NCBI GenBank assembly: GCA_947561715.1
Contig: OX387205.1
Span: 1,679,001-1,743,000 of the forward strand
Length of the DNA: 64,000 bases
Reading direction: 5' to 3'
Origin: Ascidia mentula
Taxonomy: Eukaryota > Chordata > Ascidiacea > Phlebobranchia > Ascidiidae
The notes under the pieces were generated by a model, which saw only the letters and a list, made by a program, of their open reading frames with translations, did not search any database and was not told the origin of the DNA. The position numbers and the translations under genes are program-made. This document shows, piece by piece, positions 1 to 62,976 of this stretch (positions are counted from its first letter, which is position 1; every line of letters starts with the position of its first letter).

Positions 1-2784
1 GTAATTAACTTCACTTAGCTTGGTAACTTGGTATGGAAAGAAGAATACCCTTCTAGTAAATTAAACGATGAAATGGACTTTTGGAAAGCAGGTAGACCGC
101 AAATTCCAAAGCTTAATCTGCAACCGGTTCGTGAGAAACTAACGAATGTCATTTGGAAAGAGGAACCCATTCCAGAGGGACTTAATTTATTTAAATTAAA
201 CGAACACTTGATTGGAAAGAAAAAAGTTCGATTTGAAAGTGTTTCTTATTATGTTGACGAGTTTGTTGAAATTTATGTTCCGTTGCAAGTGGACAAAATA
301 TACAGGTTTGTGACATTAAAATAGTAATATTACAGTCACATAATAAGACACGTTATGCATGTGCATCTTGTTTTTCTGCTTTTAAAATATTTTTGAATAT
401 ACTTTGTTCTTTTTCTCAGTGTATGCAGTTTAATAAAGAAACTAAAACATCTTGGAAATGAAGAAGAGTTGTCTCTCAAATATAATGATGCTAAAGAAGT
501 TATAAAGGTTTTATCAAAGTACTAATTATTCAAAATACTATTTATTAGAAACAATTATTTGTTATAAGGTGTTAAAATTACACTTGTTGGAGATTGAAAA
601 GTTGGAAAGTCATATTTGTGATGAAGATTTTGATGATTTTGAGCTTCAAATTCAGCCTGCAAAGCAAAAGCTTAAAGATGCTGCTGATTATCTCCTAAAA
701 ACAAACGGACACAAAATTGCCGGCTCCACTAGCAGCTCACAACCAACAGAATGTCAAAGTATAATAGAAGAACTACCACCTGTAAGATCTCCAAAAGCCA
801 GGGACCTTCTGAGCTTTTTGTCTGATGATGCTGATCATCCTGGTTTTGAAGAGTCATCATTTAGTGGACAACAAACTCAAATTGGTAAATTATTCCTAAA
901 GTCTTGGGTCACGTTGCATCAAAAAATAATTTGCTAATTTTTGTGGCTTACAGTGGAGCAGTTGCCTGAGATTAAACAACTAGAAGATGATGAAATGACC
1001 TCGATTAATTTTACTTCCAACGAAAACTGTGAGGAGTCGTTACAAAATCTAAACAATGTAAGTAGTATACAATGTTATTTTTTACTGCACTGGCCATTTC
1101 TAAGATTAGAACACTAGTAAAAGTTTGGTCAGCAAAGTCGTCTGATAGTCACACCAGCTGCACTGATGAGACCTTTTGGGAAACAGTGGCCATCTGTATG
1201 CAGCTTACACAATTCATATTATTGACTCCACTTTGCTTATCACTAGTAAAAGAATTGGACATTTAAATGTAATACACCAATAAATACAATTTGCTGTTAA
1301 ATGTTTCAAAGAACTTTTAATATTTAAAATGTAAAATAAATGTAATATAACAGGAGCTGGTGGAACTTCAGGGCCTTATGAGCGAGTTTCATCAGTTTGT
1401 TCATTTGCAAGGTGAAGTGGTCGATGGAATTGCTGATAATGTTGATGTTGCTCAAGAAAATGTTACACAGGGCAACATCCAACTTAAAAAGGCGAATATT
1501 CTGAAGGTAAGTCAATGTTATGAAACTGTCAGAACTTTCAAATTGAAAGTTATTTATTAGCAATCTTAAAAAATTGATTTTGCTTGCATGGGCATCCTCA
1601 GTTTCTGCAAATACGAAATTGCAAGTAAACCTGATAGCTATACGGTAAAATAAATCAAAGAATAAGTACAAAAACAAATTCTAAAGATATCTACTGTTAA
1701 AACCTAACTATTTGAACCAACAAAATAAAGCTTAATTATACCTTGTTGTGTGTTTTGTTTTATGCTGCAGTGATTAACTGTTGGTTTTAGGCTGCTATGT
1801 TTCCAATACTTGGTGCTGTCATTGGTGGTGTTGTTGGAGGGCCAATTGGTTTGGTTGCTGGCATGAAAGTGGGGAGTGTAACTGGTGGTTTGGCAATGGC
1901 TGGTGTCACTGGAACTGTGGTGGGATATCAAGTAAGCAATAACCCTCCTACATACATTTTGCTGAATGTTAAAACCTTTGGTTTGAGTCGACAATTGCTA
2001 TAGTAACAGGTCTTAGTAAGTTATCGCATATGCTTCAAAAATCACCAGCATTTCATTTGTCATAACAACAGACTGAGTAACAGTTGCTTATGTCATACAA
2101 TATAATTTGTAGTGGCGTAAGTAGTTTCAGTGCTTTGGTTTCAGGCTGTATAAATAACATATTTTGTTGGTTTATTCTGAAAACTGACATAAACACTTTG
2201 TGTAGTCATTAAAAATTACCTGTTACCAGTCTGAGCTGTTCGTTTTTCTTATCATTGGCACTCGAAACTTGTTATATGTATAAAGATCTGATTTTTAAAA
2301 CGATTAAATAAAAATTAAAAAAAAATTAAAATATCAGTTATGAACACTATTTACAAATTTGCTCATAGTTCTGAGAATGAAGTGTTTTGTATGAAACATG
2401 ACAATGTTGATGATAGTATGGGTCAGTTTCTTCATTCTCAGAATATCACTTATATGTAGAACACAACGGTCACGTGATTAACGATCTTATTGCTGCGTAG
2501 TGTTGGAAATCCTGTGTTTCGCATTGTCAGTTACAACAGAAATCGTGTTTAAGTTGTCATTGTGATATCTCACCGGCGCCGTCCGGCGGTGCATCAAATG
2601 TTTTTAACAACTATATTGTGTTCATCGCCAGCATCGATCGTTTTTAAATCTGTTCGCCCTTGCGACTTTATATTGCAGAAATTTAAAATCAACACTGTGT
2701 GTGTTTCAGGGTGGAAAAATGCTGAAGAAACGACAGCAAGAACAAATTGAATTAAACACTTTGAACGAAGAAGACGACAGATGA
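1..2784 (+). CDS. STX17: Syntaxin-17 (Qa-SNARE), 5' end beyond the window
   Basis: Syntaxin-17 is the autophagosomal Qa-SNARE that drives autophagosome-lysosome fusion and also acts at ER/mitochondria contacts. Visible exons are about 19-305, 420-507, 569-884, 954-1057, 1354-1506, 1791-1931 and 2710-2784; all phases agree. The N-terminal helical part (YVDEFVEIYVPLQ, then LHLLEIEKLESH) aligns with human STX17. The SNARE motif is in the 1354-1506 exon, with the zero-layer Gln in HLQGEVVDGIADNV. The 1791 exon encodes the family's unusual glycine-rich double membrane hairpin (GAVIGGVVGGPIGL, then GMKVGSVTGG). The tail GGKMLKKRQQEQIEL matches the basic cytosolic end of the human protein. About 70 residues precede the point where human STX17 starts; they contain two WKEE motifs and I do not recognise them. 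They may be a true N-terminal extension or start further upstream. Identity is very likely; the 5' end is uncertain. Confidence 0.9.
508..568 (+). other. 61-nt minimal intron of STX17
   Basis: This intron runs from GTTTTATC to TTATAAG and contains the branch-point-like TACTAAT at about 520-526. If it were read through, translation would stop at TAA 523-525. Removing it joins AAG to GTG in phase and restores the alignment with human STX17. It is short but has all the signals. Confidence 0.8.
1155..1207 (+). repeat. Decayed type I hammerhead element in STX17 intron
   Basis: AGCTGCA, CTGATGA, stem III ACAG/CTGT and TGCAGCT are all present. Stem II has lost its 3' arm pairing (AGGTC has become GG), and the cleavage triplet is GUA instead of GUC. 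The surrounding element shares a 5' flank (TTTGGTCAGCAAAGTC) with the copy at 7415-7529, and a 3' flank (ACAATTCATATTATTG) with the copy near 49771. It lies in the sense orientation in the intron 1058-1353. Confidence 0.8.
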
Positions 2785-6800: not shown

Positions 6801-9800
6801 TTTACACTATGAAAACTTGACAGATTAGGATAGCTACATATTAGGCTATTTGGGAACTTAAGTTAATATTCAAAGCGAAGATGAACACAATTAGTGTTTG
6901 AGACATTTGCATAACAATACCGAGCCGAGTGGTTATTTTCCAGCTATGGTTTTTGCATTCGATAAATTAATTCTCAAACAAAAAAACTCACAATGTGTTG
7001 AACTGAATACCATAATGGAAATATATTTGTTGCAGGGACATTTTACGTGGCGACAAAATGAATGCAGATGCCGTTTACATCAGGGGAATTTGTTTATATT
7101 TCGATGACAACATCGACAAAGCCGTAGCCTTTTTTACACACGCTTTAAAGTTGTCTCCTGACCATGCAAACGCAAGGCGAAATTTAAAGGTTTGTGATAT
7201 TAAGACAGAACACAAAGTTTTGTTGTATGATAAAAAACATTGTATTGTCACAGTAGACCTATGGTGGGCTGTTTTTTACATTAAATGAAGTCAAAGCACT
7301 TGATAAAAAAGCAGCATCAGTCTGGGTTTACGCAATGTTTTGAACGCATTTTCTTATGTTTTTAGACGTTTTAACATGTGTTTTATTCTTGTACGTTGGG
7401 TTTACATTACAGAAGTGGAAGTCTTTGCTTGGCCGTTTGGTCAGCAAAGTCATCTTATAGTCACACCAGCTGCACTGATGAGACCTTTTAGGTCGAAACA
7501 GTGGCCATCTGTCTGCAGCTTATACACAATTACATTACAGAACTAATGATGCCCATTCGGCAAACTGTATGTACATTGTAATACTTATTCGTCTTTAGCA
7601 TGGAAAGTGCTTTGTGTGAATTAACAATGACAGGCTGGTGATCACCAGGTTGTCATTCTCAGTTCATCCGTTTAATGTTCAAATGTAAACATTGAGAAAT
7701 CATCTCTGAGTTCCATTGATGATATGTTAATTTGTGTGTTTAGAAAGCAAAATTACTGGCCAGCAAAAAAGCTGAAGGCAATGAAGCTTTTAAAGTGGGA
7801 CAAACCCGGAAAGCATATGATCTCTATGGAGAGGCACTTGCGGTCGACCCAAACAACCGGAGAACGAATGCAAAACTTTTCTGCAATCGAGCCCTGGTTG
7901 GAAATAAGGTATAAACTTTTCTGTTGCCGCTTTTTAATGAGATACTTTAACACAGCCTTACTCACACTTGTGTTGGTTCTATAGTTGGGAAATCACCAGG
8001 AAGCGCTAGAGGATTGCAACCGTGCGATTGAATTGGATAGCAACTATGTCAAAGCCTTTCAACGACGGGCGAAATGGTAAATAAGATTTAAGTGTTGTTA
8101 GAATGTTTTGAACGTTTTTTTGGTATGTGATGAAGTGATGCCAACATATATATATATATAAAGACCATGCATTTATTTCTCTTTCTATGGATTATGAGAA
8201 AGCTGTGTGACAATTTCTGTGTGGTTGTCAAGACAATCCTTTGTATTTTTAGTTACCTGGACTTGGAAATGTACGATGAAGCTGTCCACGAATATAACAA
8301 GGTCCTACAAATGGAGCGAACTAGAGGTAAGTGATCAATTGTTTGAGCAGCTTTTGTTTCTGGTATATTCTGTGTAAAAAAATATGTCGCATTGCAATAA
8401 TTGTTTAAAGAGTGTTTTTTTTACAGTAGGAACTGTGAATTTAATGTCACCATTGACCATAAATTGTTTCCGGTAATTTATGTTACATTTTTTGGTTCTA
8501 TAGATTTTAACTAGTTTCATTTCTTTAAATAGAAAACCAGAAGCTTCTCAAAGAAGCTGAAGCCCAACTGAAACGAAGCAAGAGGAAAGATTATTACAAG
8601 ATCCTGGGGATACCCAAAGATGCAAATGATGATCAAATAAAGAAGGCTTACCGCAAACAAGCACTTATTCACCATCCAGGTAAAATGACTTGTATTTGCT
8701 GAATTAATGTCACATAATATAAGCAATGTGGAGCCAATAATATGAATTGTGTATAAGCTGCAGACAGATGGCCACTGTTATAGTCACACCAGTTGCACTG
8801 ATGAGACCTTTTAGGCTGAAACAGTGGCCATCTGTCTACATCTTATACACAGCTTATCTACCATCTTTCATACCTTTTTGGTCAATGGTTCCAAAACATC
8901 TTTAACCTAGGCCTCTGTTTTATCTTTAATAATATTTCAGTTTCAACAAGAATCCAGTCATAAACCATATTCTCCAGTCATAAACCATAAAAAATGATTA
9001 GAATTTCTTGTTCCTTTTGTAAATGTTAACCAGCAACTTGTTTTAACTTTGTTTACACGACATTTTGCAGATCGTCATGCAAACAAGACCGACGAGGAAA
9101 AAAAGAAAACTGAACAAAAGTTTAAGGAAGTTGGTGAAGCTTACACTATATTATCAGACAAACAAAAAAGGTAAAATACGATAGTAATTATCATTTGCTT
9201 GTTGTATATATTTGACATTTTGTTATTTTGAAATAAATAAAATATCTGACCAAAAGAGCCACAATAATCAATGAGAGCATTAGATAATAGTGTACACTAT
9301 TTCGATATTAACCAAACAGTACCACCAAGTAGAAGTTCTGTATCTGCTATTTTAAAAATAAGCCACACTGATAAGACCTCGTAGGTCCAAATAGTGTGTG
9401 CACCTGTCTGCAGCTTTCCATATATAGGGTTAAGCAGCAAGATTTGGTTGAAAATTTTTAGGTAACAACAAAATAATTTGAAAAAAAATAAGGAAACGTC
9501 AACACACTTTCTGTTGATTTCAGGGGGAGATATGACCGAGGCGAGGACCTTGATGGGCATTCAATGCAAGACTTCGACCCCAATAATATTTTCCAGATGT
9601 TTTTCGGAGGAGGAGGAGGTGGTGGTGGTGGACATCAGCACTTTACACGTAAGAAACACTTCTGTTCTGGATTATTTGTAATTGATTTTGGAAATCATTA
9701 GTACCATGTGGTTTTACTTCATAACTTGTTTTACAGACGGACACGAAGGCTTTGGCAGCAGCGGTGGGGGTTTCCCAGGGGGCTTTACCTTCCAGTTCGG

Positions 9801-20100: not shown

Positions 20101-23100
20101 TTACTGCCAATAACATAGAACTGTTCTTACTTCTTACTACTTTAACCCTTGGCAAAGTTAATGCAGAGTAAATACAACTCTAGAGGGCAACAAAAAAATT
20201 TGAAAATCTGCTACGTTTTCTTTGCTTTCAATTTTATAAACTTACTTTTTCTCTGACAATGATTTCGCTGGATTGTGACATGTTTTCAACCAAGTCTTGT
20301 GTGGCATCTTGTTGTGCATTTGTAGGCACTGTGACCAAGTTCATGTGGATAATTCTTTCCAACAGACTGCTGCCATGGGTAAAATCTTTCCCGTCTGTTG
20401 CAACCAGGATCACTTCATCCTCGCGAATCACCAATGCCCCTAAACACCAAATACAGGATTTACACAACTGTTTTTTTTAATGTGACAGCAGTTAGAATCT
20501 TGCCTCTGACACTTTCCTCAGAAAATTGTTGGTATATAATATCAACATATTTTTTGTTTTCTTTTTTGATCAGAACTTTCAATAGTTCTAGTTTGAGTTC
20601 ATTCATTTGTGGAGATCTTTCAATCAATTTCTGCAAAAATGTCCAGCTTACTCACCATAGTCAATATTTGTACAGGTAAGTGAAACTTAAATTTACAGCA
20701 TGGCAAATTTTACCATGCTTGAGATTTGCTCCTCTGCAGCTTGGATACATCTGCTGTCACCTTTAAACTCAACCAATTCTTTCTCCAGTGAGCATGAAAC
20801 CTCAACGGCTCCAGCAAACATTTCATTCACTTGTTTGATGACTTCGCAGTTGATTAAAATCCTAAACAGGCATCAGTGTGGGACAGGTCATATATCTGTT
20901 GTATTGTTCTTAATTTGTGGACATGACTGTTAATCAGCTGCACTGATGAGACCTTTTAGGTCGAAACAGTGGCCATCTGTCTGCAGCTTACACATGACAG
21001 TTAATGTCCATCACAAACTATATGGCAGCCAAATTTAAATTGTTTTTGCAGCAAATACTGGAGTTGTAAATTGACGTATTATCAAAAAAATCTTAATTAT
21101 TGAGCTGCTGGTAGTGAAAACTGTTTTGACCTACAAGGTCTCATCAGTGCAATGTAGCACTGAAATAGCTTTAAAACTAACAGGCACAGAGATTTCCAAT
21201 TATGGTACTTTTCAGTCAATGTACCAAACCCAATATTTGTATTACAAAAGGAACAAGGGACTTTTGGCATTTTTATACCTGCATATGTCTTTTGAACAAG
21301 GTTTGCGTTTGTTTGATGACCCAACATGTTGCTTTATGACATCACAAACGTCCTCTACATCTTGTGCCAAACCACCAACACAAATGTTGTCATCACCCAA
21401 CCTGGAACGATTCACTTGTGTTTATTTCTAGTTTAAACCTATAATAGACTTATTTCTGTAATGTTGCTACAAAGGACAACTAAAGCTTGAAAAGGATTTG
21501 AACCATTCTTTCATGCTTTTAAATGGCCCGTGGTGTGGAACACATACAAAGCCATAATCTACGTATTGTTATTTCTTAATCAAAACCTTAACTTCTATTG
21601 TGTTTCGAAAAATAAAACATTGCTTACTGTATGCCAACAGCCTTGGCTTTGTCCTGTCGTAAATCCCCCAACCATTTTGGTTGGTTGGATTTCAAGGTTT
21701 TTAAATCTTCTGGACCCAGTTCAATTTTTTCCATCACAAATTGGCAAACAAATGCCTGAATTTTTTTTGTAACTTGTTGTAAAAACCCTGCTTTGTTTTG
21801 GATCTGGCAAACCAAAAATTAAGGATTGATTAACTAAAAGAATACCTAGTGTTTACATGATTTAAAGAATGACTTAGAAACACAAGCGAACCAAAAATTA
21901 AAATTACAATTCATGTTTAAACAAAGAAATCAACACATAGTATTCATATAAAAAGTAAAAAGTTTGTTTTGTTTTATTCAAAATAATCTATTTTGCCAAA
22001 AAGGCATCATCTGTTTTACAATTGACACATGCCATATTGACAAAAGCTTAAACACATATTATATTTGAGTAATAATGTTTACTGTATCAACACTTCTTTG
22101 TAAGTATTGCATAATACAGTGACAGAATATTGATCTGGCCAACGCTATAATTTGTTTCACTTGTTTTAAAAGAATGGAAAACCGATGCATGTTAAAATCT
22201 CACCGGGCTTTGTGTTGGTGCCAGGTTTAGTGGAACTTTTTTGCCACTCACAGTGCACAAGCCTTTGCAAGTTTCATTGAGTTTGGATTTCAGGGTGCTG
22301 TATTTCATGATAAACAGTAGATTATCTTTATCTTTGTTCAATGGATGATATTCGATTTTCTCTGCAGTGGGTTCAGGCGTTTTCTTCTTGGTTGTTGTTT
22401 CACTTGTACTTGGCCTTAAAGATTCAAGTACACCAGTTACACATATTTTTTTGTTATTAACATGAAAAGAAAACTGAGCCATTTGGTAAAATTTACCACA
22501 ATAACTGGTCTGTACATGTTATTGTGATGCAATTCCACTGTATTAATGCGATGTGAGTCGGAGGTTTTAAACAACACACATACAATGAACATGAGGTTTT
22601 TAGGCTTGACAGCCCAGGCAATGCAGCCCAGCTGGATCAGCCACTTTTTCCTGACGTGGTAGGGATCCCCTACGTATATGTGAATGTTGCCTGGCAAGTT
22701 GTGCGCTTGCGCACAATATACCCTGTGAAACCACTGAGCTCCTGTAGCTCAGTTGGTAGAGCGTTGGGCCTGGTTAGCCCAGGGTCGTGAGTTCAAACCT
22801 TACCGGGAGCTTGATTTTTCAAATCTCGCTCCGAAAATGTGGCTGATCCAGCTAGGCTGCATTGCCTGGGCTGTCAAGCCTGAAAACCTCATGATCGCGA
22901 TACGTTAGCTGTGATGGCCAAGCAAGGACCTGCGCAGTGGGGCGATCATGCCATTGCATGTAATATTACTGCGTCATACAATGAACATTAATTTTTTTTA
23001 ACAATATTGGCTGTTTTGAAAAGAACAGACACTACTAAAACCAACACACTAGGAATTTACACAAACTCAGCAGTTACACAACTGATCATGTTGTAGGAAA

Positions 23101-26100: not shown

Positions 26101-27719
26101 GAGCTGCAGACAGACAGCCACTGTTTCGACGTATTAGGTCTTATTAGTGCACTATCGAAGAAACTTTAGTTTCAGGCTGAAATCTGTCAGTCTTGTTACT
26201 TTGACAAATATATTTCGCCTTGTTAAAAGAATCATCAGTGTCTATAAAAAAGAAAAGCAAGAATAAGGTTTAGTGCAGTTTGGAAATGTGTGACTCTTCT
26301 AGATGACTTGAATAGGTCAGAAACAGACAATGGCATTATTAATATTTTTGTTGCTGTTGTAATAAAAGATTGACACTGATTGTCTGCCACACTTTTCGAG
26401 TATTGTTTGTGGTGTCTACTATATTAAAAATTGCGACCAACCAAGTTTATGTGGATAAAAATTTCATGGCTCAATTAAATATTATTTAATTTGAAATGAC
26501 CGCCAGTGTTCAATAAACTGATTGCAGTTTCTGCACTTACTTTGTTTCTGAACACAAACACTTTGCTTTCTTCTACACTCAGTTCAACTCTTCCAAATGG
26601 CAGACATCGTTCTTCCAGTTGCTTGAAGTAAACATGGTAGGAAGTTATAAAGTTCAGGACATTTTTGTCAGGAGCGTTATACACCCATCGACACCGGCTT
26701 CCTGATGTTTGTGGCGCCATTGACATTTTGCTTGGAGAAAGGTCAGTCATCGACTTACTTCTATGAATACAAAATTAAGTTTTGTCAGAATCATGCAATT
26801 GCACACAAATAAACAGATGAACAATAACAGAAATGGCTTGGGCACTGATTAAACTTATAAAAGAATGTCCGATTGGATTGGGCTTTTTTGTTGTACAGCT
26901 TACATGTTTAAAAATACACTAAACAGTATTTCTCTAAGATTTTGCTATCCAGGCTAAATAAAAACCACTTATTCAGTTTACCTTTGCATATTTTTTGTTG
27001 GCATTGCAACCGCTTGTGGACAAATTTCATATAACATATTTGTAAAATTATCCACATCTGTCAAACGGCCAGTGACAGTAACACTGTTTTGTGAAAAATT
27101 CCATGTGATTTGGCAATCTTGGTTGTATGTTTCCAGATTACGACGTATTAGGTGTATATTTGCACTTATTTGGAAAGTGGATGAAGAAAACTTATTAAAA
27201 AAATTGTCCAATGCTTCGATTGTCTGATGTTTTGCCCCATAAACCTGCTACAGAAGCAAATGCAAAAGTTAAAACATTCATCAATTATGGCACATAAAAT
27301 GACAGAAATAGTATTTTAAATGGTTTCCAATCAGGTTTTTCATCAAATTTACTAGTAAACCACAACTAAATTACGAACATGATCTGAATATTTGAAAATT
27401 GTATCACAATATAGATTGTTTCACATAAAAAAATTATGATACTATTATGTTCAAAACATATCAAAAATGACAGAACAAAACCCTGTTTAAAACGATTTTT
27501 TTTATATTGAATAACTCATGGAAAACTTACAGGTCTAAAAGTCACTGCAACTTTTCCAACACCTTTGCTTTCCGAAATGTTATTTAAAGTAGCTGATTTT
27601 CCAATGTTAGATCTTATGTCATTGTGATATTGGGGATTTCTTTGAATGAATTCAATAATTTTTCCACTGCATCTGTACACAAAGCTCTCACCATGAGCAG
27701 AATTCTTTGGGCTGGACAT
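14150..27719 (-). CDS. PARP14: PARP14-like mono-ADP-ribosyltransferase (KH/RRM, macro, WWE, PARP)
   Basis: The gene has about 27 minus-strand exons and roughly 1,700 residues. It starts at ATG 27717-27719 and stops at TAA 14150-14152. The first exons (27531-27719, 26982-27247, 26541-26760 and on to about 19114) encode RRM/KH-like repeats such as LGDDNICVGGLAQDVEDVC. A macrodomain spans 18587-18723, 17859-18104 and 17343-17513 (IRVLVCNNDITKDASEAIVN; VAVPTLGCG). A WWE domain spans about 16262-16450 and 15729-15862 (CVWKWTKQQ; YTFKETHGRIKRVVIS). The catalytic domain is in 15402-15535, 14952-15129 and 14150-14430: LPSNWVDLGG, ELFHGTS (His), FAGKN-ATLFGKGSYFA (Tyr), and RIFVVFKD, where Ile takes the third catalytic place. 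H-Y-I is the pattern of mono- rather than poly-ADP-ribosylating members. Human PARP14 has three macrodomains; I find one. PARP15 is a less likely match because of the long N-terminus. The borders of the exon near 16670-16797 are unsure. Confidence 0.88.
20440..20503 (-). other. GC-AG intron in the PARP14-like gene
   Basis: On the minus strand the upstream exon ends ...GTCAGAG and the intron begins GCAAGATT, ending TTTAG before GGGCATTGG. Only the GC donor leaves the one nucleotide needed to continue GGG GCA TTG GTG; the nearby GT (TTGT/GTAAAT) has the wrong phase. The intron is 64 nt long. Confidence 0.65.
20935..20991 (+). mobile_element. 57-nt hammerhead insertion with 14-bp TSD
   Basis: Near-exact direct repeats ACATGACTGTTAAT (20921-20934) and ACATGACAGTTAAT (20992-21005) flank an insert that is almost only the ribozyme. 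It lacks the ~53 nt of 5' sequence present in the 7415-7529 copy, as expected from 5' truncation during reverse transcription. It lies in an intron of the PARP14-like gene, antisense to it. Confidence 0.8.
20936..20988 (+). ncRNA. Type I hammerhead ribozyme, intact (second copy)
   Basis: This is identical in all 53 positions to the ribozyme at 7468-7520. Stem I is AGCTGCA/TGCAGCT, the core CTGATGA is at 20943-20949, stem II is GACCT-TTT-AGGTC, GAAA is at 20963-20966, and stem III is ACAG/CTGT. The predicted cleavage is after C 20981. A chance match is not credible. Confidence 0.88.
21106..21150 (-). repeat. Decayed hammerhead element, minus strand
   Basis: Read on the minus strand, TGCACTGATGA and GACCT-TGT-AGGTC are intact, but the GAAA core is AAAA and stem III is lost. 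It sits about 120 nt from the intact copy at 20936, in the same intron. Confidence 0.65.
22593..22974 (+). mobile_element. tRNA-derived SINE with inverted flanking arms and 14-bp TSD
   Basis: Exact direct repeats CATACAATGAACAT at 22579-22592 and 22975-22988 bound the element. The centre (22738-22810) folds as a 73-nt tRNA-like body: a 7-bp acceptor GCTCCTG/CGGGAGC, a D arm GCTC/GAGC, an anticodon stem TGGGC/GCCCA with loop CTGGTTA, and a T arm GTGAG-TTCAAAC-CTTAC. There is one extra base before the anticodon stem and a T at position 37, so it is probably not a working tRNA gene. Around it, 22590-22644 is the reverse complement of 22839-22893 with about three mismatches. The copy at 10838-11070 shares the body and tail. 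It lies in an intron of the PARP14-like gene. Confidence 0.85.
26101..26153 (-). repeat. Decayed hammerhead element in PARP14-like intron
   Basis: On the minus strand GTCGAAACAGTGGC and GTCTGTCTGCAGCTC are kept, while the CTGATGA box reads CTAATAA. Two core changes should abolish cleavage. It is sense to the host gene. Confidence 0.65.
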
Positions 27720-47400: not shown

Positions 47401-50400
47401 AAGAATTTTAGTGCCACGCTCCCAAGACCACTCGAAGTTGTCAGCGGGGGATTTGTGCTTCAAATAAACATTTCTTAATGACGAAAATATCAATAAAATC
47501 CTGGTAACATTCATATTTCTTGCAGTTTCTGATGTTTTTGCTTTTGTTTCAGGAACCTTCCGCCACAGAGGTTAAAGTTGATGACGCAAAAGTGTCGCAA
47601 CCACCGAGAGATGACGTCACAAAGCCGCAGGTTACGGACAAGGCGAGAGCTTCGCCAGCAAAACAGGACAAAATAGTGAAAGGTGCGATGACAAAACGTC
47701 TTTGAAAACGTTTTCTCATTTCCTTGCCTGTTTATTGTCTCCTTTCCTGGAAGAATGTTAATACCAGTACTGTGTCATGGTGTATGGCAAACTGATAGGA
47801 ACATGCAGAGTAGATATAAACATAGGTCCGTTTCTTTGGTATAATTTTCAGTTACACGACGAGGGTGTAGCTGACACTGGGTTCATTGTTTTTTTTCACA
47901 ATCTATTGGCATTTCACTGTGACGTCAAAAATTATAACGACACTTTTGTGTTCAGCGAAACCTAAAAGCGCCGTTTCCGACAAAAAGGTGGAAGAAGATG
48001 AAGAGGATTATGAGGAAGACCTCCCTCCCCTGCCAGCCGAGACGTAAGAATTAAAAAAACTAAAGAAATTTTTACCTGCCATTAAACATATTATTTGCTC
48101 TGGGAAATCACCCACCTATTGCATCAATCGATAACAAATACAACCCAAGTTATTCCCTTACAGCAAACTTCACAATAGAAATCTTAATTAAGCCCAGAAA
48201 AAATCGTTTCACTTTAAATTATTAAAATCTGTGTTTTGTAAACAAAAATCATATAAGACAGCGTGCGGCGATTACTACACCTTTTTTTCCGGGCAGCTTC
48301 TCGGCAACCGCTTGCGGTTTAAAGTTGAGTTGGTTCTCGCCAGTTCACTGTACTCGTTTATGACGTAACTATACTTAAAATTATCAATTATAGGTTTTTG
48401 TCGTTAAGGTAAAAATGTAAATACTGGACCTTTTTTTAACATGAGATCCTTTCCGGGTAAAACCTTTCCGTTTTTAAGCGAACAATAGTGTTCTTGGGCC
48501 CTTTTTGATATTCATGGCCCCCCAGCCCCTTGGGGGCCGTACCCCCCGCGTGTTAACTCATTGAAATATTTTTTTCTTCACCAGACCTGAAGATGAGTAT
48601 GATTTTGTTCGTGTGGAGGACACTCCAGTGGAGGAACAAGTGAAGAGCCCGACTCCACCTCCTCCCGTTGTTGACGAGGTTGCTCCGGATGTGGAAAAGG
48701 GAGATGACTCTAAATCACAAATCTCCGACTTAACCGCTGTAAGTTCGTGACTACTCACTGGTTTTGATCAAACGAATGGTGGTCAATCTCGGGGGTATTT
48801 ATGCTTCAGTTGTGCGAAATGTTTTAACTCCAAAATTAATGACGTAAAGTTAAACATTTTTGAAGTCAATTTGTAGGATAATCCAAAATAGCGAGCAAAA
48901 ATAGTCTGATATTTTTCAACGGTTGCAAGAGATGTTGCAAACTTCCATGAAATACAGTAGAGTTTAGAGCACATCTTTGAGCTACAGATGGTAGCAAAGT
49001 GCACAGTACTTTGCACCTCTACTTAATTATGTTATTATGGCTCTTTTGTTTCTGTGAGTTGAGTGACATGAAAGTCTATGGCACTTTTGGATACCAAGCA
49101 GTTTTGATTGTCCATACTAATCTCCACGGAGTCAAAAAATAATCCAGTTTACATTTTTAAATCTTTTAAGGTAAATGGTTTGACATTGATCGTAAATATG
49201 AAAAATTTTACAAAAATCATTTCCTCCGCATTGTTTGACAGGGTACAGAGGGAACCGAAATCTCATCACAAGCTGCCGCTCAGAATGCGGAAGATGAGGC
49301 TGAGAGGCAAGCAAAACTCGCTGCCAAGCAAGAGAGGGAGCAGAAGAGAGCGGCAGCAGCTGAGAAGAGGAAGCAGGAAGTTGAGAAGAAGCGGAGGGAA
49401 AAAGAGGAACAGATCAGGCGGGAGAAGGAAGAGCAGGAACGTCAGGAACAAATGAGGTAAGTGATTCCTCCATATTTACCTCTTTTTACAAGTGGAACTA
49501 AAGGAAAACTCTCTTTTGATATCGGATATTGAATTGTGTACATCTGTGGCCTCTTAATACAATACAATAAACTGATGTTTTTCTCCTTAAAATGTACTGT
49601 AATAAAATGGAGATTAGCTAATTGCTTGTTTAAGTTTACAACAGTCCTAGTATTTGGATTGATTTGCCTCCGTGGTTTCTTCCTTGGGCACCAAACTAGG
49701 TGCAACCTTACGGTGAAAACAAGGTGGAAACACTACGGCCAAGCAAAGCTCAACCAATAGTGCCGTCAGGCCCCCTGTATGTGACCTTTTAGGTCGAAAC
49801 AGTGGCCATCTGTCTGCAGCTTATACACAATTCATATTATTGGCTCCACATTGCTTATCACAGTTCCTGTTTAATTAAATCTTTCGTGCAAGTTCTTTTG
49901 CTATTATCTGTGAATTTGGCTTCGCAAGTGAAAAATCATCTTCTGGAGTATATTTTTGTCACACATTATTAACTGCAGCCTGTCTGTTTTTTGTTGGAAA
50001 CTCAAGTCAGCCCACACCTTAAAAACAACTTCTTTACTTTAGGGAAGAGTTGGATGCAGAACGGAGGAAGAGGGAAGAAGCAACTCGACTCAAGAAGGAG
50101 GAAGCGGAGAGAGCCAAGCAACGGGAAAAAGAAGAGGAAGAATTGAGGCAGAGGAGACTCCTCCAACAGCAGGAGAGAGAGCGAAAGCAACAGGTTTGCT
50201 TCAAAGGGTTTTCTTAATTTTAAACATTGGTCATTTTAAACATACCAGAAAGGGGAGGGTGACACTGACTCAATGTTTTGTGGTGGCACCATGTGACCAC
50301 TTTATGGCCCAATACCCCTCTTGGCCCCGGGTTAATGCTTAACCCGGATATCTTTCGGTCAACGTAATGTGACTTATTTGTTAACCTTTTCATGAATTTT

Positions 50401-52629: not shown

Positions 52630-53760
52630 CAGAAAACTTTGGGTTGAGACGATCCTGGGACATTATGAGAAGATGGTGTAACTTGTTGGCTGCTGGCGGG
52701 GAGGTAGCTGAGATTAGAGGTGTTGTGCTTGTTTACCAAAGTTCTGCATGGGATACGTGTACGCAGAATCGATCCAGATCTACTATGAGGTGCGTGGTGA
52801 TGGTGTTTTTTTACTCGGCGAATGGAACTCTAGTGTTCCCGCAAGAGTAGATCGAATAGTGCAGTGCCGGTGAGATTTTGGTTGGCGATCGCTTGTGAGT
52901 TCCTCGGATCCAGGATCCAGGATCCGCAACCACAACCACTTACGTGGCTCGATGGAGAACGGGCACGCAGAATCGATCCAGGTCTCCTATGAGGAGCGTT
53001 GTGATGGTGTTTGATTTCGCTCGGCGAAACGATAAAGTGATATTGCAACAGCGCCACCTGGCGCCCTTGTGGGCACCGATTTTTGGCGATTAGGTTTGCT
53101 GAAGAAGCCCACAGGTTTTTGTAGCAAACCAGGCAGTGAACGTAGAGTCGATTCTTGGCCCTCATGAGAAGATGGTGTTACCTATTGGCTGCTGGCTGGA
53201 GGTGGCTGATTTGCCTGATATTATAGGTGTTATGCTTGTTTTTCCAAGTTCTGCAAGGGATACGTGTACGCAGAATCGATCCAGATCTCCTATGAGGAGC
53301 GTTGTGATGGTGTTTGATTTCGCTCGGCAAAACGATAAAGTGATGACGCAACAGCGCCACCTGGCGCCCTTGTGAGCCCCAATTTTTGGCGATTAGATTT
53401 GCTGAAGAAGCCCACAGGTTTTTGGAGAAAACCAGGCAGTGGACGCAGAGTCGATCCTGGGCCATCATGAGAAGATGGTGTTAGTTGTTGGCCATTTGGG
53501 AGATAGCAGATTTGCGTGAGACTGGAGGTCTTGTGCTTGTTCCTGAAGCTCTTAGACGGAAACGTGCACGCAGAATCGATCCAGGCCTACTATATGGAGC
53601 GTGGTGATGGTGTTTGATTTCGCTCGGCGAAACAAAAAAGTTAAGTTGCAATAGCGGCACCTGGCGTCTTTGTCAGACTTGGTTAATGGCGATTGGAACG
53701 CTCTGTTAATTCAGTTGAATAATTGCTGGATTTGGGGACTGATATGGGAAATTAGCAAAT

Positions 53761-53920
53761 GGTGCGCGAACACCAAATCAAGCACTTTTCCTCGATCGGT
53801 TGTCCACATCTTGACTCGATCGTCGAGTTTTAGGTCGATTATTCGGCTATTAATCCGTCGTTCGAGCCTTGATGTGGGCATCCGATCGAGGAAAAGTGCT
53901 CGATTTGGTGCTCGCGCGCC
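53761..53920. repeat. Foldback in repeat unit (copy 1)
   Basis: Arm 1 runs from GGTGCGCGAACACC to CTCGATCGTCG, and arm 2 is its reverse complement from CGTCGTTCG to CTCGCGCGCC. The arms are about 65 nt with few mismatches around a ~30-nt loop. Further copies lie at 55585-55745, 57413-57572, 58670-58830, 60497-60656 and 62297-62456. Confidence 0.85.
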
Positions 53921-56900
53921 TTTTCTTCTGAAAATCTCAAATTTGGACCGACTCTGCGTTTTCAAAGAAGGAAAATCGCAAATTATGAGCAACTCTGTGT
54001 GCACGTAACAGAAAAAAGTACCCTGAAATGGTGAAAAAAGTGAATTTGGTCGACTCTGCGTTTACGTTTTGAGCGTATTTTGAAAATATTTTTTTGCTTT
54101 TTTTTCAAAAAAAATCAGGAAAAAAAAGCAACTCTGAACACCACCGAAGTGTCCAGAGTCGCTTCCTGTGTCACCAACCTCAACGCCTGTTTACAGTGGC
54201 AGTTTTGCATCTATTGTCACACATCAAACACACACGCACGCACATACCCACAAAGAACAACACTACCGTTCCATCGCGCGATGGTCTCTAACATACTCGA
54301 TAACGGTTATAGACTTACCTCGCCTTGTGCATAATCCAGCTCTTGTTCTCCAATGCTTTCACATTTTCGTCCCAGCTCGTTTCGCTCAGCATTAAAATCA
54401 ACCTCAATATTTGCTACTTTACCACGAAACCTCAGAGTTCAGTTTTCTGACACCTCCTGCCAAACATTAACGAGTTCCCTGCCACCAACCATTCAACTTT
54501 AAGTAAGGAAGCTCAAATACTTCACAACGTTGCGGTCAAATCTCGTATAGGCACGTATAGCTCGTACGTACCATGGTTAGTATTAGCTCTGAATCGGATA
54601 CAAACCCTCACAACGCACACGAGCGCTGTCTCTCATAGTAGGACAGAATCGATTCTGCGTCTACCGCCACGCAATTGCTTCGCGAAAAATGACGTTTGTC
54701 AAAGTGTGCACGCAGAACCGTTCATCCAGTGCTGCAAGGGGGCAAGTCGTACCGCTGTAGTAGGTTGGTTGCGCACATAGGAATGACGCAAATTAGGGCA
54801 CGGAATACCCATGGAAAACTTTGGGTTGATCCTGCGCCAATGATGCGTATGTCGCTTACCCGTTTTCTGTCGCATCGGACGCGGGTTAAATGTTTGTTGG
54901 GAGTGGATTCGCAAACAGATTTGCTGAAGACCCTCGCAGGTTTTTGTAGCAAACCAGGCAGTGAACGCAGAGTCGATCCTGGGCCATCATGAGAAGATGG
55001 TGTTACCTATTGGCTGCTCGCAGGAGGTGGCTGAATTGCCTGAGATTAGAGGTGTTATGCTTGTTTTTCCAAGCCCTGCAAGGGATACGTGTACGCAGAA
55101 TCGATCCAGATCTCCTATGAGGAGCGTTGTGATGGTGTTTGATTTCGCTCGGCAAAACGATAAAGTGATGACGCAACAGCGCCACCTGGCGCCCTTGTGA
55201 GCCCCGATTTTTGGCGATTAGATTTGCTGAAGAAGCCCACAGGTTTTTGGAGAAAACCAGGCAGTGGACGCAGAGTCGATCCCTGGCCATCATGAGAAGA
55301 TGGTGTTAGTTGTTGGCCATTTGGGAGATAGCAGATTTGCGTGAGACTAGAGGTCTTGTGCTTGTTCCTGAAGCTCTTAGACGGAAACGTGCACGCAGAA
55401 TCGATCCAGGCCTACTATATGGAGCGTGGTGATGATGTTTGATTTCGCTCGGCGAAACAAAAATGTTAAGTCGCAATAGCGCCACTTGGCGTCTTTGTCA
55501 GACTTGGTTAATGGCGATTCGAACGCCCTCTTAATTGAGTTGAATAATTGCTGGATTTGGGGACTGATATGGGAAATTAGCAAATGGTGAGCGAGCGCCA
55601 AATCAAGCACTTTTCCTCGATCGGTTGTCCACATCTTGGCTCGATCGTCGGGTTTTAGGTCGATTATTCGGCTTTTGATCCGTCGTTCGAGCCTTGATGT
55701 GGGCATCCGATCGAGGAAAAGTGCTCGATTTGGTGCTCGCGCGCCTTTTCTTCTGAAAATCTCAAATTTGGACCGACTCTGCGTTTTCAAAGAGGGAAAA
55801 TCGCAAATTATGAGCAACTCTGTGTGCACCTAACAGAAAAGAGTATCCTGAAATGGTGAAAAAAGTGAATTTGGTCGACTCTGCGTTTACGTTTTGAGCG
55901 TATTTTGAAAATATTTTTTTCCTTTTTTTTCAAAAAAAATTAGGAAAAAAAAGCAACTCTGAACACCACCCAAGTGTCCAGAGTCGCTTCCTGCGTCACC
56001 AACCATTCCGCCATTTACAGTGAAAGTTTTGCATCTATTGTCACACATCAAACACACACGCATACACATACCCACAAAGAACAACACTACCGTTCCATCG
56101 CGCGATGGTCTCTAACATACTCGATAACGGTCATAGACTTACCTCGGCTAGCGCATAATCCAGCTCTCATTCTCCAATGCTTTCACATCTTCGTCCCAGC
56201 TCGTTTCGCTCAACATTAAAATCAACCTCAATATTTGCTACTTTACCACGAAACCTCGAGTTTCAGTTTTCTGACAGTGCACCTCCTGCCAAACATTAAC
56301 GACTTCCCTGCCACCAACCATTCAACTTTAAGTGAGGAAGCTCAAATACTACACAACTTTGCGGTCAAATCTCGTATAGGCACGTATAGCTCGTACGTAC
56401 CATGGTTAGTATTAGCTCTGAATCGGATATAAACCCTCACAACGCACGAGCGCTGTCTCTCATAGTAGGGCAGAATCGATTCTGCGTCTACCGCCACGCA
56501 ATTTCTTCGCGAAAAATAACGTTTGTCAAAGCGTGCACGCAGACCCGTTCATCCAGTGCTGTAAGGGGGCAAGTCGTACCGCTGTAGTAGGTCGGTTGCG
56601 CACATAGGAATGACGCTAACTAGGGCACTGAATGCCCGTGGAAAACTTTGGGTTGGTCCTGCGCAAGTGATGCGTATGTCGCTTACCCGTTTTCTGTCGC
56701 ATCGGACGCGGGTTAAATGTTTGTTGGGAGTGGATTCGCAAACAGCTTTACTGAAGACACCCGCAGGTTTTTGTCGCAAACCAGGCAGTGAACGCAGAGT
56801 CGTTCCTGGGCCATCATGAGAAGATGGTGTTACGTGTTGGCTGCTGGCAGGAGGTGGCTGATTTGCCAGAGATTAGAGGTGTTATGCTTGTTTTTCCAAG

Positions 56901-58424
56901 CCCTGCATGGGATACGTGTACGCAGAATCGATCCAGATCTCCTATGAGGAGCGTTCTGATGGTGTTTGATTTCGCTCGGCGAAACAAAAATGTTAAGTCG
57001 CAATAGCGCCACTTGGCGCCTTTGTGAGCCTCGATTTTTGGCGATTAGATTTGTTGAAGAAGCCCACAGGTTTTTGGAGAAAACCAGGCAGTGGTCGCAG
57101 AGTCGATCCCTGGCCATCATGAGAAGATGGTGTTAGTTGTTGGCCATTTGGGAGATAGCAGATTTGCGTGAGACTATAGGTCTTGTGCTTGTTCCTAAAG
57201 CTCTTAGACAGAAACGTGCACGCAGAATCGATCCAGGCCTACTATATGGAGCGTGGTGGTGGTGTTTGATTTCGCTCGGCGAAACAAAAATGTTAAGTCG
57301 CAATAGCGCCACTTGGCGTCTTTGTCAGACTTGGTTAATGGCGATTCGAACGCCCTCTTAATTGAGTTGAATAATTGCTGGATTTGGGGACTGATATGGG
57401 AAATTAGCAAATGGTGCGCGAGCACCAAATCAAGCACTTTTCCTCGATCGCTTGTCTACATTTTGGCTCGATCGTCGGGTTTTAGGTCGATTATTCGGCT
57501 TTTGATCCGTCGTTCGAGCCTTGATGTGGGCATCCGATCGAGGAAAAGTGCTCGATTTGGTGCTCGCGCGCCTTTTCTTCTGAAAATCTCGAATTTGGAT
57601 CGACTCTTGCGTTTTCAAAGAAAGAAAATCGCAAATTATGAGCAACTCTGTGTGCACTTAACCGAAAAAAGTACCCTGAAATGGTGAAAAAAGTGAATTT
57701 GGTCGACTCTGCGTTTACGTTTCGGGCGTATTTTGAAAATTTTTTTTTTCCTTTTTTTTCAAAAAAAATTAGGAAAAAAAAGCAACTCTGAACACCAACC
57801 AAGTGTCCAGAGTTGCTTCCTGCGTCACCAACCATTCCGCCGTTTACAGTGAAAGTTTTTGGCTCTATTGTCATACATCAAACACACACACATACCCACA
57901 AAGAACTACACTACCGTTCCATCGCGCGATGGTCTCTAACATACTCGATAACGGTTATAGACTTACCTCGGCTTGCGTATAATCCAGCTCTTGTTCTCCA
58001 ATGCTTTCACATTTTCGTCCCAGCTCGTTTCGCTCAATTACAATCAACCTCAATATTTGCTACTTTACCACGAAACCTCAGAGTTTCAGTTTTCTGACAC
58101 CTCCTGCCAAAAACCTTAACGAGTTCCCTGCCACCAACCATTCAACTTTAAGTGAGGAAGCTCAAATACTTCACAACGTTGCGGTCAAATCTCGTATAGG
58201 CACGTATAGCTCGTACGTACCATGGTTAGTATTAGCTCTGAGTCGGATATAAACCCTCACAACGCACGATCGCTGTCTCTCATAGTAGGGCAGAATCGAT
58301 TCTGCGTCTACCGCCACGCAATTGCTTCGCGAAAAATAACGTTTGTCAAAGCGTGCACGCAGACTCGTTCATCCAGTGCTGCACGGGGGCAAGTCGTACC
58401 GCTGTAGTAGGTCGGTTGCGCACA

Positions 58425-58470
58425 TAGATGTGACGCAAATTAGGGCACTGACTGAAGCTCTCAGACGGAA
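58425..58470. other. Deletion junction within a repeat unit
   Basis: At about 58450 the sequence passes from TTAGGGCACTGA directly to CTGAAGCTCTCAGACGG. In other units these are separated by about 550 nt, namely the first sub-repeat and most of the second. This explains the 1263-nt spacing between units. Confidence 0.85.
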
Positions 58471-61400
58471 ACGTGCACGCAGAATCGATCCAGGCCTACT
58501 ATAAGGAGCATGGTGGTGGTGTTTGATTTCGCTCGGCGAAACAAAAATGTTAAGTCGCAATAGCGCCACTTGGCGTCTTTATCAGACTTGGTTAATGGCG
58601 ATTCGAACGCCCTCTTAATTGAGTTGAATAATTGCCGGATTTGGGGACTGATATGGGAAATTAGCAAATGGTGCGCGAGCACCAAATGAAGCACTTTTCC
58701 TCGATCGGTTGTCCACATTTTGGCTCGATCGTCGGGTTTGAGGTCGATTATTCGGCTTTTAATCCGTCGTTCGAGCCTTTGATGTGGGCATCTGATCGAG
58801 GAAAAGTGCTCGATTTGGTGCCCGCGCGCCTTTTCTTCTGAAAATCTCGAATTTGGAGCGACTCTGCGTTTTCAAAGAAGGAAAATCGCAAATTATGAGC
58901 AACTCTGTGTGCACGTAACCGAAAAAACGACCATGAAATGGTGAAAAAAAGTGAATTTGGTCGACTCTGCGTTTACGTTTTGGGCGTATTTTGAAAATTT
59001 TTTTTTCCTTTTTTTTCAAAAAAAAATTAGGAAAAAAAAGCAACTCTGAACACCACCCAAGTGTCCAGAGTCCAGAGTCGCTTCCTGCGTCACCAACCAT
59101 TCCGCCGTTTACAGTGGCAGTTTTGCATCTCACATCAAACACACACGCACGCACATACCCACAAAGAACTACACTATCGTTCCATCGCGCGATGGTCTCT
59201 TACATACTCGATAACGGTTATAGACTTACCTCGGCTTGCGCATAATCCAGCTCTTGTTCTCCAATGCTTTCACATTTTCGTCCCAGCTCGTTTTGCTCAA
59301 CATTAAAATCAACCTCAATATTTGCTACTTTACCACGAAACCTCAGAGTTTCAGTTTTCTGACACCTCCTGCCAAACATTAACGAGTTCCCTGCCACCAA
59401 CAATTCAACTTTAAGTGAGGAAGCTCAAATACTTCACAACGTTGCGGTCAAATCTCGTATAGGCACGTATAGCTCGTACGTACCATGGTTAGTATTAGCT
59501 CTGAGTCGGATATAAACCCTCACAACGCACGATCGCTGTCTCTCATAGTAGGGCAGAATCGATTCTGCGTCTACCGCCACGCAATTGCTTCGCGAAAAAT
59601 AACGTTTGTCAAAGCGTGCACGCAGACTCGTTCATCCAGTGCTGCACGGGGGCAAGTCGTACCGCTGTAGTAGGTCGGTTGCGCACATAGATGTGACGCA
59701 AATTAGGGCACTGAATGGCCGTGGAAAACTTTGGGTTGATCTGGCGCCAATGATGCGTATGTCGCTTTCCCGTTTTCTGTCGCATCGGACGCGGGTTAAA
59801 TGTTTGTTGGGAGTGGATTCGCAAACAGATTTGCTGAAGACACCCGCAGGTTTTTGTCGCAAACCAGGCAGTGAACGCAGAGTCGATCCAGGGCCATCAT
59901 GAGAAAATGGTGTTACATGTTGGCTGCTGGCAGGAGGTGGCTGATTTGCCTGAGATTAGAGGTGTTATGCTTGTTTTTCCAAGCCCTGCAAGGGATACGT
60001 GTACGCAGAATCGATCCAGATCTCCTATGAGGAGCGTTGTGATGGTGTTTGATTTCGCTCGGCAAAACGATAAAGTGATGACGCAACAGCGCCACCTGGC
60101 GCCCTTGTGAGCCCCAGATTTTTGGCGATTAGATTTGCTGAAGAAGCCCACAGGTTTTTGGAGAAAACCAGGCAGTGGACGCAGAGTCGATCCTTGGCCA
60201 TCATGAGAAGATGGTGTTAGTTGTTGGCCATTTGGGAGATAGCAGATTTGCGTGAGACTAGAGGTCTTGTGCTTGTTCCTGAAGCTCTTAGACGGAAACG
60301 TGCACGCAGAATCGATCCAGACCTACTATATGGAGCGTGGTGGTGGTGTTTGATTTCGCTCGGCGAAACAAAAATGTTAAGTCGCAATAGCGCCACCTGG
60401 CGTCTTTGTCAGACTTGGTTAATGGCGATTCGAACGCTCTCTTAATTGAGTTGAATAATTGCTGGATTTGGGGACTGATATGGGAAATTAGCAAATGGTG
60501 CGTGAACACCAAATCAAGCACTTTTCCTCGATCGGTAGTCCGCATCTTGACTCGATCGTCGGGTTTTAGGTCGATTATTCGGCTTTTGATCCGTCGTTCG
60601 AGCCTTGATGTGGGCATCCGATCGAGGAAAAGTGCTCGATTTGGTGCTCGCGCGCCTTTTCTTCTGAAAATCTCAAATTTGGACCGACTCTGCGTTTTCA
60701 AAGAGGGAAAATCGCAAATTATGAGCAACTTTGTGTGCACGTAACAGAAAAAAGTGAATTTGGTCGACTCTGCGTTTACGTTTTGAGCGTATTTTGAAAA
60801 TTTTTTTTTTTCTTTTTTTTCAAAAAAAATTAGGAAAAAAAAGCAACTCTGAACACCACCCAGGTGTCCAGAGTCGCTTCCTGCGTCACCAACCATTCCG
60901 CCATTTACAGTGAAAGTTTTGCATCTATTGTCACATGTCAAACACACACGCACATACCCACAAAGAACAACACTACCGTTCCATCGCGCGATGGTCTCTA
61001 ACATACTCGATAACGGTTCTAGACTTACCTCGGCTTGTGCATAATCCAGCCATTGTTCTGCAACGCTTTTACATTTTCGTCCCAGCTCGTTTCGCTCAAC
61101 ATTAAAATCAACCTCAATATTTGCTACTTTACCACGAAACCTCGAGTTTCAGTTTTCTGACACCTCCTGCCAAAAACCTTAACGAGTTCCCTGCCACCAA
61201 CCATTCAACTTCAAGCGAGGAAGCTCAAATACTTCACAACGTTGCGGTCAAATCTCGTATAGGCACGTATAGCTCGTACGTACCATGGTTAGTATTAGCT
61301 CTTAATCGGATATAAATCCTCACAACGCACGAGCGCTGTCTCTCATAGTAGGGCAGAATCGATTCTGCGTCTACCGCCACGCAATTGCTTCGCGAAAAAT

Positions 61401-62799
61401 AACGTTTGTCAAAGCGTGCACGCAGACTCGTTCATCCAGTGCTGTAAGGGGGGAAGTCGTACCGCTGTAGTAGATCGGTTGCGCACATAGGAATGACGCA
61501 AATAAGGTCACGGAATGCCCATGGAAAACTTTGGGTTGATCCGGCGCCAATGATGCGTATGTCGCTTACCCGTTTTCTGTCGCATCGGACGCGGGTTAAA
61601 TGTTTGTTGGGTGTGGATTCGCAAACAGATTTGCTGAAGACATCTGCAGGTTTTTGTCGCAAACCAGGCAGTGAACGAAGAGTCGATCCTGGGCCATCAT
61701 GAGAAGATGGTGTTACTTGTTGGCTGCTGGCGGGAGGTGTATGGCTGATTTGCCTGAGATTAGAGGTGTTATGCTTCTTTTTCCAAGCCCTGCAAGAGAC
61801 ACGTGTACGCAGAATCGATCCAGATCTCCTATGAGGAGCGTTGTGATGGTGTTTGATTTCGCTCGGCAAAACGTCAAAGTCATGACGCAACAGCGCCACC
61901 TGGCGCCCTTGTGAGCTCCAGATTTTTTGCGATTAGATTTGCTGAAGACACCCACAGATTTTTGGAGAAAACCAGGCAGTGGACGCAGAGTCGATCCCTG
62001 GCCATCATGAGAAGATGGTGTTAGTTGTTGGCCAGGAGATAGCAGATTTGCGTGAGACTAGAGGTCTTGTGCTTGTTCCTGAAGCTCTTAGACGAAAACG
62101 TGCACGCAGAATCGATCCAGGCCTACTATATGGAGCGTGGTGGTGGTGTTTGATTTCGCTCGGCGAAACAAAAATGTTAAGTCGCAATAGCGCCACCTGG
62201 CGTCTTTGTCAGACTTGGTTAATGGCGATTCGAACGCTCTCTTAATTGAGTTGAATAATTGCCGGATTTGGGGACTGATATGGGAAATTAGCAAATGGTG
62301 CGCGAGCACCAAATCAAGCACTTTTCCTCGATCGGTTGTCCACATCTTGGCTCGATCGTCGGGTTTTAGGTCGATTATTCGGCTTTTAATCCGTCGTTCG
62401 AGCCTTGATGTGGGCATCCGATCGAGGAAAAGTGCTCGATTTGGTGCTAGCGCGCCTTTTCTTCTGAAAATCTCGAATTTGGAGCGACTCTGCGTTTTCA
62501 AAGAAGGAAAATTGGAAATTATGAGCAACTCTGTGTGCACGTAACCGAAAAAGTGAATTTGGTCGACTCTGCGTTTACGTTTTGGGCGTATTTTGAAAAT
62601 TTTTTTTTTTGCTTTTTCAAAAAAATAATTTGGAAAAAAAAGCAACTCTGAACACCACCCAAGTGTCCAGAGTCGCTTCCAGCGTCACCAACCTTTCCGC
62701 CGTTTACAGTGGCAGTTTACGCACATACCCACAAAGAACAACACTACCGTTCCATCGCGCGATGGTCTCTAACATACTCGATAACGGTTATAGACTTAC

Positions 62800-62976
62800 C
62801 TCGGCCTGCGCATAATCCAGCTCTTGTTCTCCAATGCTTTCACATTTTCGTCCCAGCTCGTTTCGCTCAACATTAAAATCAACCTCGATATTTGCTACTT
62901 TACCACGAAACCTCAGAGTTTCAGTTTTCTGACACCTCCTGCCAAAAACCTTAACGAGTTCCCAGCCACCAACCAT
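62800..62976 (-). pseudogene. Exon-like 59-codon frame in repeat unit
   Basis: On the minus strand an ATG (62974-62976) opens a frame MVGGWELVKVFGRRCQKTE... ending ELDYAQAE exactly at a strong donor, GAG/GTAAGT. The same region occurs in every unit. It is frameshifted in the copies near 54430, 56250, 58040 and 61130, and the start codon is lost in the copy near 59400. I recognise no family and found no clear next exon in phase. It may be a captured first exon now decaying, or a chance frame. Confidence 0.35.

Follow-up and report, generated by a model that had tools for sequence, protein, structure and literature searches.

In an intron of a DNAJC7-type gene, the genome of Ascidia mentula carries a 5'-truncated copy of a retrozyme, named RZ1, which was probably copied in trans by the reverse transcriptase (RT) of a Penelope-like element (PLE) with a GIY-YIG endonuclease, starting from one or both of two sites in the retrozyme RNA, a and b. 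This reading draws on the scars that RZ1 and a second family, RZ2, have left across the genome and on those of the PLEs that share it. The window, that is the whole stretch of 64,000 nucleotides analysed here, was studied together with the rest of the assembly by a search of 195.8 Mb in 79 contigs.

The insert in the DNAJC7-type intron

The host intron is flanked by exons 7037-7189 and 7744-7908, whose matches to TPR models (E 3e-5 and 5e-5) score slightly under the Pfam curated cut-offs, and is followed by two exon halves, 8529-8681 and 9070-9171, which make up a DnaJ domain above the cut-off. The combination of TPR and DnaJ fits DNAJC7, and the gene is here called DNAJC7-type. The features of the intron are the following:

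7190..7743, + strand, host intron of the TPR and DnaJ (DNAJC7-type) gene, GT at 7190 and AG at 7742-7743, placed by eye
7402..7414, + strand, left target site duplication (TSD) TTACATTACAGAA, exact 13-bp direct repeat
7415..7529, + strand, 115-nt retrozyme RZ1 insert, 5'-truncated, 3' end at site a (...CTTATACACAA), from the unit match with ends corrected by the TSD
7421..7451, + strand, hairpin upstream of the ribozyme (GTCTTTGCT...AGCAAAGTC), from the inverted repeat and fold
7468..7520, + strand, type I hammerhead ribozyme, predicted cut 7513|7514, from direct reading and the rule-based finder
7530..7542, + strand, right TSD, exact 13-bp direct repeat

Hammerheads were called by direct reading and by a custom rule-based finder that applies the hammerhead core rules. 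In the window ribozyme, stem I pairs AGCUGCA with UGCAGCU over 7 bp; the core CUGAUGA is followed by stem II (GACC/GGUC, 4 bp, or 5 with an extra U-A pair) and GAA; stem III is ACAG(UGGCCAU)CUGU, and the cleavage triplet is GUC. At the level of sequence, a complete type I hammerhead between exact TSDs is thus confirmed. A count of exact matches to the 53-nt ribozyme across the genome gave 467 (236 on the plus and 231 on the minus strand), and none for the reversed pattern.

The first-pass annotation had described an intact hammerhead of this type in a non-autonomous retroposed carrier, 115 nt long and bounded by exact 13-bp duplications, on the sense strand of a DNAJC7 intron, and had named other genomic copies of the ribozyme as a check. 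All of this stands: the core, stems, triplet and repeats are in place, the TPR exons, DnaJ halves and genome copies bear out the carrier and its host, and the further copies were found in hundreds. The exception concerns the extent of the element, since the 115-nt piece taken there for the whole derives from a 283-nt unit and is truncated at its 5' end. The unit matches window positions 7405-7531 at 97.6%, and because the copy spans only unit position ~186 to unit position 16, it holds a single ribozyme and is missing over half of the unit. A circle requires two ribozymes in the published scheme, as given in the accessible part of PMC7229834; therefore the usual circle could not arise from this truncated, single-ribozyme copy alone.

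A covariance-model search, also suggested in the first-pass annotation, where the lack of a hit was named as refuting, gave no hit at the Rfam gathering cut-off. Weak Rfam matches were obtained for the window ribozyme, at 21.6 bits with the type III model (gathering cut-off 48.5) and 21.2 bits with RAGATH-1 (cut-off 56.3), and the ribozyme of RZ2 scored 24.8 and 29.1, respectively; in the scan of the whole window no hammerhead reached the gathering cut-off, and the sole family to pass was a tRNA, at 22738-22811. We give more weight to the abundance of copies and to the conservation seen across the two families than to this negative outcome. Folded in isolation, the window ribozyme has a minimum-energy structure of -17.4 kcal/mol versus -15.1 kcal/mol for the hammerhead, so that another fold is lower by 2.3 kcal/mol, and its folding energy is ordinary against shuffles (z -1.2 to -2.0). 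For the RZ2 ribozyme alone, the minimum-energy fold is the hammerhead.

The retrozyme families RZ1 and RZ2

In the genome search, at least 49 matches that are 95-100% alike were found on nine contigs (best 40 of 1762 candidates scored). The RZ1 unit is 283 nt long with a G+C content of 47.3%. In longer copies the ribozymes follow one another head to tail, 283-285 nt apart, with nothing between the units; among 100 of the 467 exact ribozyme places, all 11 steps between same-strand neighbours measure 284-285 nt, the step in L004/L017 is 283 nt, and C70:2677591-2678899 consists of five units in a row. RZ2, first met beside a PLE, has a unit of 293 nt with 47.8% G+C and at least 45 matches (best 40 of 1967 candidates scored). 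Outside the ribozyme the two families agree in 157 of 259 aligned columns (61%). Within it 49 of 62 are alike, the differences being confined to the loops of stems II and III, with none in the core or helices. Across four units, 6 of the 36 predicted pairs have changed on both sides, giving a small covariation term on which no conclusion is based. A tRNA-derived SINE was considered as well and rejected, as ARAGORN found no tRNA-like head in L017, L061 or L001, a search that diverged heads may escape.

Within the window alone, blastn with both units (E <= 1e-3) locates ten retrozyme inserts or pieces, while the reversed units give none, and the rule-based finder reports an intact ribozyme in only two of the ten. 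Besides the insert at 7415..7529, these are:

1123..1242, + strand, RZ1 insert whose 3' end falls at site b, flanked by TSD CACTAGTAAAAG and with a broken ribozyme
8713..8851, minus then plus arm, inverted RZ1 insert with ends b and a and a broken ribozyme, located between the exons for the two DnaJ halves of this host gene
9243..9278, - strand, short RZ2-like piece, 89% (blastn)
9366..9416, + strand, old RZ1-like piece, 80% (blastn)
20935..20994, + strand, RZ1 fragment with an intact 53-nt ribozyme at 20936-20988 (finder and blastn)
21120..21220, - strand, old RZ2-like piece, 77% (blastn)
26102..26151, - strand, old RZ1-like piece, 86% (blastn)
49032..49128, + strand, old RZ2-like piece, 69%, weak (blastn, E 3e-4)
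49684..49860, inverted RZ1 insert with its right end at site b and an irregular left end

Two other repeats were noted in passing. Loci L015 and L016 lie in 3.1-kb stretches that are 99.8% alike, inverted ~4.6 kb apart and carry the same retrozyme insert, which represents a recent inverted duplication. At window 53402-63734, CTGAAGAAGCCCACAGGTTTTTGGAGAAA occurs in four exact copies and one near copy on the plus strand, which probably stem from gene duplication or from repeats and have no relation to the retrozymes.

In every feature that can be tested on sequence, RZ1 and RZ2 agree with the metazoan non-LTR retrozymes, and we class them as members of this known kind. Animal retrozymes, as described in the accessible part of Cervera and de la Pena 2020 (PMC7229834), carry type I hammerheads in tandem units of 170-400 nt with low G+C content, are known from coral, mussel and axolotl, and give rise to RNA circles. 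Our families share with them the hammerhead type, a unit length within that range (the window copy being a single truncated piece), G+C below 50%, TSDs longer than 4 bp, a high copy number (about 5000 hammerheads in the mussel) and the presence of PLEs in the same genome. The sequence families themselves differ, and dispersed truncated and inverted copies are many here; two fixed starts and outward arms are not described in that part of the paper. Plant LTR retrozymes (PMC4918200) are likewise non-autonomous, hammerhead-bearing elements with circular RNA, but unlike RZ1 and RZ2 they have type III hammerheads, LTRs and 4-bp TSDs (as cited in the accessible part of PMC7229834). Of the two kinds of animal element mentioned in the first-pass annotation as carriers of hammerheads, retrozymes and PLEs, the retrozyme name is appropriate and the PLE name is not, the 283-nt unit having no RT or GIY-YIG reading frame.

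Insertion scars of the retrozymes and of PLEs

The scars were analysed in retrozyme loci L002-L030 and L048-L117 and in the window, with the units mapped onto each. They contain 119 inserts lying wholly inside the sequence (inserts cut by a locus end were omitted, uncounted), which were reduced to 103 unique ones by removal of 16 flank duplicates, and to 92 recent ones by dropping 11 that were short or below 88% identity. Two arms in inverted orientation make up 40 of the 92, and all 40 have the minus arm before the plus arm, with both RNA 3' ends facing outward. The same polarity is seen in opposite-strand neighbours within 1.2 kb, with 9 minus-plus pairs versus 1 plus-minus pair among the exact-ribozyme places listed for C1 and part of C2, and 10 versus 1 in a second list of places.

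The 3' ends fall on two sites. Site a lies at RZ1 unit positions ~10-20, after CTTATACACAA, and at ~9-15, once 23, in RZ2; site b lies at ~39-50 in RZ1 and ~35-43 in RZ2, the spacing between the two being ~28 nt. Direct inserts (n=52) end at a in 30 cases, at b in 21 and elsewhere in one. Inverted inserts combine a with b in 34 of 40 cases; two are a/a, none is b/b, and four have an irregular end. One of the two a/a inserts, L059, reads as a/b by eye. The other, at L077:1325-1951, is a chimera of RZ1 and RZ2 arms inside a single 9-bp repeat, possibly formed by template switching between the families or by nested insertion.

If the ends were independent and followed the proportions of the direct inserts, a/b would be expected in 48% of cases, an expectation that is itself biased, because the first 60 loci were chosen by similarity to queries ending near a and b and their a/b proportions are biased accordingly. 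The observed value is 34 of the 36 inverted inserts with both ends classed (3.5e-9 versus independent ends). A later sample, taken from the list of exact ribozymes, gave a/b in 11 of 11 inverted inserts (3.4e-4 versus independent ends); the a and b windows had been fixed after the first 60 loci, and once the ends of the later 40 loci were in view, those for a were extended by two to three bases; 10 of the 11 fit the original windows, with the right end of L100 clipped by the query. We did not find such a two-site rule for retrozymes in the literature searched, which covers subscription papers thinly and in part.

TSD-like repeats of at least 7 bp flank 68 of the 92 inserts (34 of 40 among the inverted and 34 of 52 among the direct ones), with a median length of 12 bp and 79% A+T, although some of the shortest may be due to chance and the 18-bp one in L069 is retrozyme sequence; over the outermost 300 nt of the loci that hold the first 53 inserts, A+T is 62%. 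The RZ1 5' stops gather near site a, with 9 at unit positions 12-26 versus 1 at 27-59, the former window having been picked after inspection of the list and one of the nine, the 30-nt arm of L022, not being a full round. This gathering fits one round of copying on a circle up to a start site, but may have other causes. Separately, 7 of 94 RZ1 5' stops fall at unit positions 172-174, perhaps a strong pause site. Stops at unit positions 1-3, such as run-off at a cut end might leave, number 5 of 132, which is too few for a claim.

PLEs of the same genome leave comparable scars. At least 121 GIY-YIG places were found (best 150 of 382 candidates scored), and among the 121 listed, neighbours within 5 kb are in minus-plus order in 17 cases, on the same strand in 6 and in plus-minus order in none. 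One cluster, C67:6134028-6146916, comprises five such places (frames of 559-892 aa), two minus and three plus, with same-strand steps of 2870 bp. The three inverted PLE inserts with both ends visible (L044, L036 and L033) have an extension of 30-40 nt on one end only; their TSDs are clear by script in L044 and L036, while L033 has none by script and 6 bp by eye. Both in the PLE families examined and in the retrozymes, copies end downstream of a hammerhead motif; in the PLEs this hammerhead-like motif has a sequence other than that of the retrozyme ribozyme. A search of 17 PLE-related loci (L031-L047; 121 GIY-YIG places listed) for PLEs with sequence in common with RZ1 gave none; the retrozyme matches there at E < 1e-3 were RZ2 beside a PLE in L045, where an inverted RZ2 copy (L045:3857-4101) adjoins a PLE stretch, and an old ribozyme-like piece in L032/L039. 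Matches of 12-18 nt between PLEs and retrozymes (E 0.6-3) were regarded as chance. Site a of RZ2 resembles PLE family A in 16 of 20 positions, which 9 of 2000 shuffles reach (~0.06 after 14 comparisons), and this likeness is only suggestive.

These scars agree with the descriptions of PLEs in PMC11167929 and in the accessible part of PMC3846280, where outward inverted arms, a tail at one end, AT-rich targets, short TSDs and a hammerhead upstream of the RT start are reported. In PMC11167929, the purified PLE protein, modelled as a dimer, cuts and extends both strands, prefers ATT motifs and starts at two adjacent RNA-internal sites, the stretch between them corresponding to the genomic "tail"; no strand difference in the start site is reported there. 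In vitro insertion was independent of hammerhead cleavage in the same study, and no RNA ends were seen at the cut site. RZ1 therefore appears to insert like a PLE without being one: its scars are of the PLE type, but PLEs encode an RT and a GIY-YIG endonuclease, for which the 283-nt unit is too short.

The candidate mover

In the accessible parts of PMC7229834 and PMC7761336, PLEs figure as movers of animal retrozymes by a guess from co-occurrence, and the former names them as candidates because type I hammerheads, tandem arrangement and co-existence are common to both. We consider PLE enzymes the likely movers because the geometry of the retrozyme scars matches that of the PLE scars in this genome and in the PLE papers. 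Our data support the published proposal that animal retrozymes are copied by PLEs, and two starts on a single circular RNA may be used.

The cycle may proceed as follows. Following the scheme in the available part of PMC7229834, source loci with two or more tandem units would be transcribed, each hammerhead would cut once per 283-nt unit, and a host ligase would close the unit into a circle. Judging from the scars, a PLE RT with its GIY-YIG endonuclease would then take the retrozyme RNA in trans, both strands of an AT-rich target would be nicked ~12 bp apart, and reverse transcription would start at one or both nicks, on one side from site a (~16 nt past the ribozyme cut) and on the other from site b (~28 nt further). 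Use of both arms would yield a two-arm insert with outward RNA 3' ends, and survival of one arm a simple 5'-truncated copy such as that in the window; copying once round would stop near site a, and continued copying would produce tandem arrays. The more specific model, in which a PLE RT, probably as a dimer, sits on one circular RNA with its two active sites in fixed register, one for a and the other for b, each strand of the staggered nick serving as the primer of one start, and with PLEs as the movers, we hold to be evenly balanced between true and false.

Among the other readings, the least improbable is that a LINE moved the retrozyme and that the inverted copies reflect ordinary twin priming. 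Variable TSDs, 5' truncations and 5' inversions are found with LINEs too. Twin priming generally starts the inverted arm at varied internal sites, whereas two fixed sites are used here; the insert ends inspected have no A-rich tail, and the same scar is found in PLEs of this genome, which formed the comparison set. It is slightly less probable still that a PLE enzyme copied the retrozyme and the inverted arms arose by self-priming of the cDNA rather than from two primed strands. The authors of PMC3846280, in its accessible part, attribute the inverted repeats of rotifer PLEs to self-priming with an antisense template, and outward head-to-head arms would be expected from that process too; however, an arm copied back should end at the start of the first arm, as a/a or b/b, whereas 34 of 40 are a/b, the two arms stop at differing unit positions, and both strands were extended in PMC11167929.

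Copying by a PLE enzyme from two primed strands is thus preferred. The PLEs here do have hammerhead-like motifs upstream of the RT start and the same scar, and the insert could on that ground be a degenerate PLE terminal repeat (a pLTR fragment) with no separate non-autonomous family; we think this very unlikely, as the units run head to tail with nothing between them and the PLEs examined carry other motifs and, at E 1e-3, share no sequence with RZ1 except nested or old retrozyme pieces. A chance resemblance to a hammerhead, to which the sub-threshold Rfam scores and the competing minimum-energy fold might point, is highly improbable in view of 467 exact copies versus none for the reversed control, and of a core and helices that are identical in RZ2, a family with 61% agreement elsewhere and with a ribozyme that, taken alone, adopts the hammerhead fold. 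Equally improbable is retention of the intronic ribozyme for a role in DNAJC7 expression. The ribozyme is intact and lies sense to the host gene, and as an intronic ribozyme it could thereby in principle cut the pre-mRNA; hundreds of identical ribozymes nevertheless occur in nearly equal numbers on both strands, the window alone holds ten inserts or pieces, and another copy in the same gene is broken, so that we see no sign of a host role.

If the model of two starts in fixed register is right, retrozyme copies would be clean natural records of that PLE reaction. The near-identical copies of so small an element, hundreds in number and with scars that follow a rule, make the mover question for retrozymes testable by counting, and the 283-nt unit offers a substrate for PLE biochemistry. 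The element also illustrates how a ribozyme may come to lie in introns again and again.
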